Shown here piece after piece: positions 47,088 to 47,236 of a stretch of DNA of 55,140 nt (position 1 is the stretch's first letter; every line of letters begins with the position of its first letter). The notes below the pieces were generated by a model. The model saw nothing but the letters and a program-made list of their open reading frames with translations. It was not told where the DNA came from and did not search any database. Origin of the DNA: Actinomycetota bacterium (GTDB taxonomy: Bacteria; Actinomycetota; Acidimicrobiia; Acidimicrobiales; Ilumatobacteraceae); contig RFST01000002.1 of assembly GCA_009923855.1 (NCBI GenBank), positions 1-55,140 of the forward strand, read 5' to 3'. A program made the translations under genes and the position numbers.

Positions 47088-47124
47088 GAAAAAGCAAGAA
47101 GCCCCCGACCGGGGCGGTGGGGGC
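47088..47124 (-). terminator. Rho-independent terminator (attenuator) upstream of leuA
   Basis: Minus strand GCCCCCACCG-CCC-CGGTC-GGGGGC followed by TTCTTGCTTTTTC. Confidence 0.8.
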
Positions 47125-47152
47125 GGGCGAACGGGACCGTGCGCGTTCGCCC
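47125..47152 (-). promoter_or_regulatory. Leader RNA hairpin (GGGCGAACG-N10-CGTTCGCCC) between leuL stop and terminator
   Basis: Perfect 9-bp inverted repeat abutting the leader peptide stop codon. Confidence 0.75.
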
Positions 47153-47199
47153 TACGTAAGCAGGAGGAGGAACTCGCGGCGGTCGGCGATGGCGCTCAT
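47152..47199 (-). CDS. leuA leader peptide MSAIADRREFLLLLT
   Basis: ATG AGC GCC ATC GCC GAC CGC CGC GAG TTC CTC CTC CTG CTT ACG TAG: four consecutive Leu codons immediately before an attenuator-like structure and leuA. Confidence 0.85.
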   Translation of the reverse strand: MSAIADRREFLLLLT

Positions 47200-47207
47200 T
47201 GTTCGAA

Positions 47208-47236
47208 AGGCTACTCCTGTACGTCGTCACAGGCAA
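47208..47236 (-). promoter_or_regulatory. Putative leuL-leuA promoter TTGCCT-N17-TAGCCT
   Basis: -35 at 47231-47236, -10 at 47208-47213, -10 lies 8 nt before the leuL ATG (leaderless geometry). Confidence 0.55.

Follow-up and report, generated by a model that had tools for sequence, protein, structure and literature searches.

A short leucine-rich open reading frame (ORF), followed by two adjoining hairpins and a T-rich tract, precedes leuA in an Ilumatobacteraceae bacterium of the class Acidimicrobiia (GCA_009923855.1, contig RFST01000002.1), and comparison with relatives strongly supports the view that this is a real leucine attenuator with an ordinary purpose and an unusual two-hairpin build. 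The analyzed DNA, positions 1 to 55,140 of the contig, is hereafter the window. We give the full account, in which leuA is controlled by a leucyl-tRNA-dependent attenuator whose first hairpin blocks the adjacent terminator, a probability of about 0.72. Attenuation by leucine as such is very probable, and the blocking step taken on its own has somewhat less than an even chance of being right.

The leuA leader unit in the window

A leaderless 15-codon ORF, a hairpin (P1), an abutting intrinsic terminator (T) and leuA follow one another on the minus strand. The features, as read from the sequence, are:

47208–47236, minus strand: promoter-like elements, TTGCCT (47236–47231) and TAGCCT (47213–47208), with a 17-nt spacer.
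47152–47199, minus strand: leader ORF MSAIADRREFLLLLT and its stop, 15 codons, read as leaderless; leaders ending in LLLL and then T or M before the stop occur at 43 leuA loci.
47158–47169, minus strand: the four regulatory Leu codons, CTC CTC CTG CTT.
47125–47152, minus strand: hairpin P1, the putative sensor, a perfect 9 bp (GGGCGAACG, 47152–47144, with CGTTCGCCC, 47133–47125).
47101–47124, minus strand: GC-rich terminator hairpin T (GCCCCCACCG, 47124–47115, with CGGT-C-GGGGGC, 47111–47101).
47089–47100, minus strand: T-rich tail of the terminator, TTCTTGCTTTTT; a T-rich tract follows T in relatives too.
45313–47010, minus strand: leuA, 2-isopropylmalate synthase, the regulated gene (NCBIfam NF002991, 846 bits, and TIGR00970, 795 bits, both above the cut-off).

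The promoter, leader, Leu codons, two hairpins, tail and leuA had all been placed at these positions in a preliminary description of the DNA, and re-reading the sequence bore this out. P1 and the stop codon share one base, the last of the stop and the first of P1, so the hairpin overlaps the stop rather than abutting it, and the gap between P1 and T is 0 nt. TAGCCT lies 8 nt from the leader ATG (47199), and transcription is predicted to start at or next to this ATG; the leuA ATG is at 47010.

In shuffled sequence, runs of four CTN codons are expected 0.30 times per 55 kb, versus two observed in the window, one of which is the leuA leader. Folding z-scores were unremarkable (−1.46 for a short leader and 0.09 for a longer one), and as such a score alone is insufficient as proof, it is conservation that carries the reality of the element. 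A search of the window against Rfam gave no match at the gathering score, only chance matches far below the threshold.

The divergent neighbor of the leader is a DEAD-box RNA helicase gene (47319–48683, plus strand). A helicase-domain protein, ML1624, was suggested as a partner of the LEU element by Seliverstov et al. (PMC1262725); the position of the helicase gene beside the leuA leader is probably a coincidence. The leuD and leuC genes are located at 49587–51592 on the minus strand, the same strand as leuA, and the some 60 nt between leuC and its upstream gene are too short for a separate leader of the leuA type.

Conservation of the element upstream of leuA

Every one of the 61 genomes searched, those of the window and 60 relatives, had a LeuA-type protein, and roughly three quarters had a strong orthologue; 46 leuA upstream regions were extracted, the window's own included. 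The element, i.e., a short ORF with a Leu-rich stretch at its end, a stop, P1 and T, was present at 43 of the 46 loci. The Leu run is usually trailed by one more residue, mostly Thr or Met, before the stop, and conservation does not extend to the N-terminal portion of the leader. Of the three exceptions, one (L035) is on a second contig, and the element occurs on the other contig of that genome (L047); the remaining two, leuA loci of the order (L045 and L046), have a different Leu-rich ORF (MSFLLDLRLLSPAA and MRIELLALRLMHPAS) and then another GC-rich region. Within a second collection, mostly Ilumatobacteraceae with other Acidimicrobiia, 79 of 80 loci matched the model and the lone miss was without upstream DNA (79/79 otherwise); the 46-locus and 80-locus counts are not independent, as many assemblies are common to both.

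Both hairpins also covary. Seven of the ten P1 pairs have changed on both sides, and none of 500 shuffles reached the observed score; covariation of T was evident from base-pair counts and from the segment-pair test described below. This alignment of leuA upstream regions, suggested as a check in the preliminary description, thus returned a conserved Leu run and two conserved, covarying hairpins.

A family of leaders before branched-chain genes

To a covariance model built from the leuA leaders of relatives only (R1), 83 of 148 genomes of the class and 27 of 150 genomes of the phylum had matches, and these preceded two types of leuA, leuS, ilvB, leuB and cimA (gene identities were assigned by NCBIfam for representatives and by sequence motif for the remainder). 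With a broader model (R2), 102 of 119 class genomes had a match. The elements before leuS, the leucyl-tRNA synthetase gene, have Leu-bearing leaders and were found inside and outside the class (L093, L094, L101 and L117).

The window's own genome has a second copy (contig C313 of G000, 6068–6157, minus strand; L144 and L246), which precedes cimA, encoding the citramalate synthase of isoleucine synthesis. Its leader, MTHFATIIIIP, is accompanied by P1 and T and represents a natural Leu-to-Ile codon swap. The ilvB gene of this genome begins too close to a contig end for a leader to be read.

Across the family, the residues at the regulatory positions track the downstream gene. Leaders with Leu only account for 89 of 94 leuA and leuS elements versus 0 of 37 ilvB, leuB and cimA elements (Fisher p = 1.5e-27, which counts related species separately and is not a phylogenetic p-value). 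Ile is the sole branched-chain residue at these positions in cimA leaders, ilvB leaders have a mixture of Val, Leu and Ile, and leuB-type leaders carry Val and Ile, not Leu (VVVIR, IVVIS, VIVIP, VAVIP and IVVIP; L147, L152, L153, L157 and L134), perhaps because the leuB-type enzyme or operon serves isoleucine/valine synthesis. The leader codons are shifted toward those that are rare in leuA bodies, i.e., CTT (39% vs 7%) and, for Val, GTA (72% in ilvB leaders vs 3% in leuA bodies). This codon-swap pattern is the strongest indication that the leader is read by a translating ribosome. It also agrees with what had been claimed at the outset for leuA, ribosome-mediated attenuation that senses leucine.

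The spacing between the −10-like sequence and the start codon recurs as well. In 52 of 113 elements, TANNNT ends 6–8 nt 5' of an in-frame start codon (ATG or GTG), versus 1.9% at shifted positions, and several other elements have near variants by eye, such as CAGACT. This supports a leaderless promoter as a probable trait of the family, so that the leaderless initiation proposed earlier for the window would be a rule and not a quirk.

Two further observations concern the distribution of the design. At trpE, a shared design was considered and rejected, as none of 30 loci (L247–L276) has a Trp-run leader directly upstream and the only W.W match, at one locus, is about 500 nt away; among the genes examined here, the design was seen only with branched-chain genes and leuS. 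In the P1 loop, a conserved motif near CACAUAUCC is shared by distant elements belonging to several genes (L019, L023, L028, L047, L085, L131, L138 and others), and no pairing partner was found for it.

Two covarying helices and the search for an antiterminator

Native and swapped pairing energies were compared for 45 segment pairs in 49 dereplicated elements; three rows were ignored, because some short segments form no duplex and their cross means are meaningless. The two arms of P1 (native −18.5 vs swapped −11.0) and those of T (−15.9 vs −10.4) stood out, and no third helix joining leader, P1 and T was found among the 45 pairs. No conserved base-paired antiterminator was detected by covariation in the 49 elements. 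The absence of an antiterminator evident by eye, remarked on earlier for the window, therefore extends to the whole family.

P1 and T have no bases in common, and their arrangement is regular. The stop codon contains the start of P1 in 39 of the 49 elements, the P1–T gap is 0–2 nt in 39, and the distance from the stop to the base of T is 22–34 nt in 46 (median 28).

Several other pairings were considered and rejected. The preliminary description had raised the possibility of a long-range switch between leader codons 5–7 and the 3' arm of T. Their 7-nt complementarity (47186–47180 with 47111–47105) is real and is unconserved (lead-t3, p = 0.41). Overall, the leucine attenuator of leuA in that description stood and its long-range switch did not, and it had missed the class-wide set and the second copy in the genome. 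Leader codons 6–10 fold onto the 5' arm of P1 in the unmasked minimum free energy (MFE) structure of the window, leaving P1 at only 0.03, and this pairing is not common to relatives (lead-p15, p = 0.17). Pairing of the terminator loop with GGCC 3' of the U-run gave a native value of −3.29 vs a cross value of −3.61 (tl-post), with no supporting covariation.

GGCC-type sequences 3' of the U-run were seen by eye in several relatives (L019, L020, L026, L028, L031, L034 and L036), where they could pair with the T loop and 3' arm, and MFE prefers this pairing in a few species.

Response to ribosome position and proposed mechanism

The leader was folded in an equilibrium model with the ribosome footprint masked. 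With the fifth codon ahead of the stop, the first regulatory codon, in the ribosomal A site, P1 was folded at 0.97, and with the ribosome at the stop it was folded at 0.03. A ribosome at the last Leu codon (−2) left P1 partly melted (0.45), and the sign of the response thus depends on the stall position. T was folded in every ribosome state (0.94–0.97). As P1 switches with the ribosome and T does not, P1 can sense, and in the model it looks like the sensor; the model shows no link between P1 and T through base pairing. Folding with ribosome masking, suggested as a check in the preliminary description, showed a response of P1 only, T being folded throughout.

Given the leader, the codon matching, both helices, their spacing, the P1 response and the lack of another covarying helix, all of which rest on comparison and computation, we infer a transcription start, a leucine response and a steric action of P1 on T as follows. 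A leaderless transcript would begin at the ATG of the 15-codon ORF, and leuA expression would depend on charged leucyl-tRNA. When leucine is plentiful, the ribosome would reach the stop codon and, because P1 begins there, its footprint would cover the 5' arm of P1 and melt the hairpin; T, about 28 nt downstream and outside the reach of the ribosome, would fold and end transcription. When leucine is scarce, the ribosome would stop at the first codons of the Leu run, where its leading edge would not quite reach P1, and P1 would fold. The folded P1 would then prevent closure of the last base pairs of T in the exit channel of RNA polymerase, allowing readthrough into leuA.

Steric blocking is proposed because P1 touches the base of T with almost no linker in 39 of 49 elements. 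The 28-nt spacing between stop and T fits measurements of terminator distance in E. coli, in which a terminator 5 bp past the stop is repressed (<10%) and one 28 bp away works (~90%); closure of the last 2–3 bp of a terminator has been reported as essential (PMC4824070). We found no direct precedent in the literature for the steric step of P1 on T, and neighboring double hairpins have also been interpreted as terminators themselves (PMC8355165). The corresponding view of the whole class, a family of branched-chain attenuators with steric antitermination, in which a ribosome-sensed hairpin at the stop codon blocks an abutting T with no alternative pairing, is tentative.

Alternative explanations

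The alternative that survives best, although unlikely, is a classical three-structure attenuator with a lineage-specific antiterminator (e.g., pairing of the 3' arms of P1 and T, or of leader codons with T) that the alignment-wide test would have missed. In some relatives within the genus (L006 and L007), the T 3' arm is extended to GGGCGA or GGGCGG, so that pairing with the 3' arm of P1 becomes possible. Moreover, a terminator, an antiterminator and an anti-antiterminator have been reported for the ilvB attenuator of C. glutamicum (PMC11857589), and a terminator and an anti-terminator for ilvB1 of M. tuberculosis (PMC13236596). However, only P1 and T covary in the 49 elements (p13-t3, p = 0.74, with lead-t3 and lead-p15 as given above), and T is predicted to be folded in every ribosome state.

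A little less probable again is a compound double-hairpin terminator, in which P1 assists T and termination is weakened when P1 is masked by a ribosome stalled on the last Leu codons or on the stop. Its support lies in the contiguity of P1 and T, which would permit end-to-end stacking, in a published description of double-adjacent hairpins as sites of termination (PMC8355165), and in the drop of P1 to 0.45 upon a stall at −2. Nevertheless, a ribosome at the stop codon masks P1 most, which would turn leuA on with abundant leucine unless release were very fast, and P1 stays folded when the stall is at the first Leu codon.

We regard as very improbable a switch like that of the LEU element, in which the Leu run pairs with the T 3' arm (AGGAGG/GGGGG) or with the ribosome-binding site of leuA and ribosome occupancy toggles the pairing. 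Pairing between a Leu run and the Shine-Dalgarno sequence was proposed in other Actinobacteria by Seliverstov et al. (PMC1262725), and the leuA elements do combine CU-rich Leu runs with GA/G-rich T 3' arms, with a mean duplex of about −10 kcal/mol. Yet against the T 3' arm, the Leu codons as they stand gain nothing over randomly chosen synonymous ones (z = +0.33), and this pairing, weak at ilvB (−5.4) and barely present at cimA (−1.4) although the architecture is shared, shows no covariation (reg-t3, p = 0.78); in addition, stalling would expose T too, the wrong sign for a biosynthetic gene.

Least probable of all is that a conserved short ORF and terminator play a small role while leuA is mainly under other control (protein or translation), as might be read from the ambivalent Streptomyces coelicolor results summarized in PMC1262725, where Leu-codon mutations in the leuA leader are reported to deviate from the prediction of classical attenuation, since codon identity follows the pathway across paralogous elements and within the same genome and the leaders are enriched in codons rare in leuA bodies.

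Comparison with known systems and significance

Classical attenuators have a 2:3 antiterminator overlapping the terminator, and no such structure was found here by the covariation test. The enterobacterial trp, his, leu and ilv attenuators share with the present element regulatory codons, a coupled ribosome and a premature intrinsic terminator, and a ribosome at the stop favors termination in them, as we propose here. The present element has a leader ORF with codons for the end product and an intrinsic terminator between the leader and the structural gene, as ribosome-mediated attenuators do. Since no antiterminator sharing bases with T was found, it is best said to work like an attenuator and is not a classical member.

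The LEU element upstream of leuA in Actinobacteria (Seliverstov et al. 2005; PMC1262725) likewise has a leader ORF with a Leu run and a hairpin just past the run, and in Actinomycetia loci (e.g., L051 and L059) the start codon soon follows a −10-like sequence, as it does here. In contrast, the stop codon of the LEU element lies inside a large hairpin, as seen in loci of the Actinomycetia type, whereas in the present element it adjoins P1; and the loop of that hairpin can pair downstream as a pseudoknot with no terminator reported, whereas the present element has an intrinsic terminator. A pseudoknot of the LEU type was not supported in the 49 elements, where the P1 loop and the post-terminator segment do not covary (p1l-post, p = 0.81), and R1 had no match in the genomes of two LEU-type loci in the phylum scan (L055 in G068 and L059 in G082). 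The 2005 paper judged classical attenuation unlikely and left the mechanism of the leuA leader open (PMC1262725).

Leader ORFs with branched-chain codons and an intrinsic terminator are also found at ilvB-II and ilvBNC of Corynebacterium (PMC10272879, PMC11857589) and at ilvB1 of M. tuberculosis, the regulatory codons of which are LVVI (PMC13236596). In those models, a base-paired antiterminator excludes the terminator, whereas none was found in the present element. The mycobacterial polycysteine uORFs (Canestrari et al. 2020, cited in PMC13236596) are similar in being leaderless short ORFs with codons that sense one amino acid. They belong to cysteine genes and are termed translation attenuation in PMC13236596, which does not describe them as a leader with an abutting pair of terminator hairpins. 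Our literature search, of partial coverage, found no paper joining Acidimicrobiia with an attenuator and none relevant on a cimA leader, and we therefore make no claim of priority.

With an explicit terminator, two helices and natural codon swaps (Leu at leuA and leuS, Ile at cimA, and Ile, Leu and Val at ilvB), sensing and read-out are separately testable in this family. If P1 acts sterically, attenuation would need no competing pairing, and such systems would escape any search built around an antiterminator.
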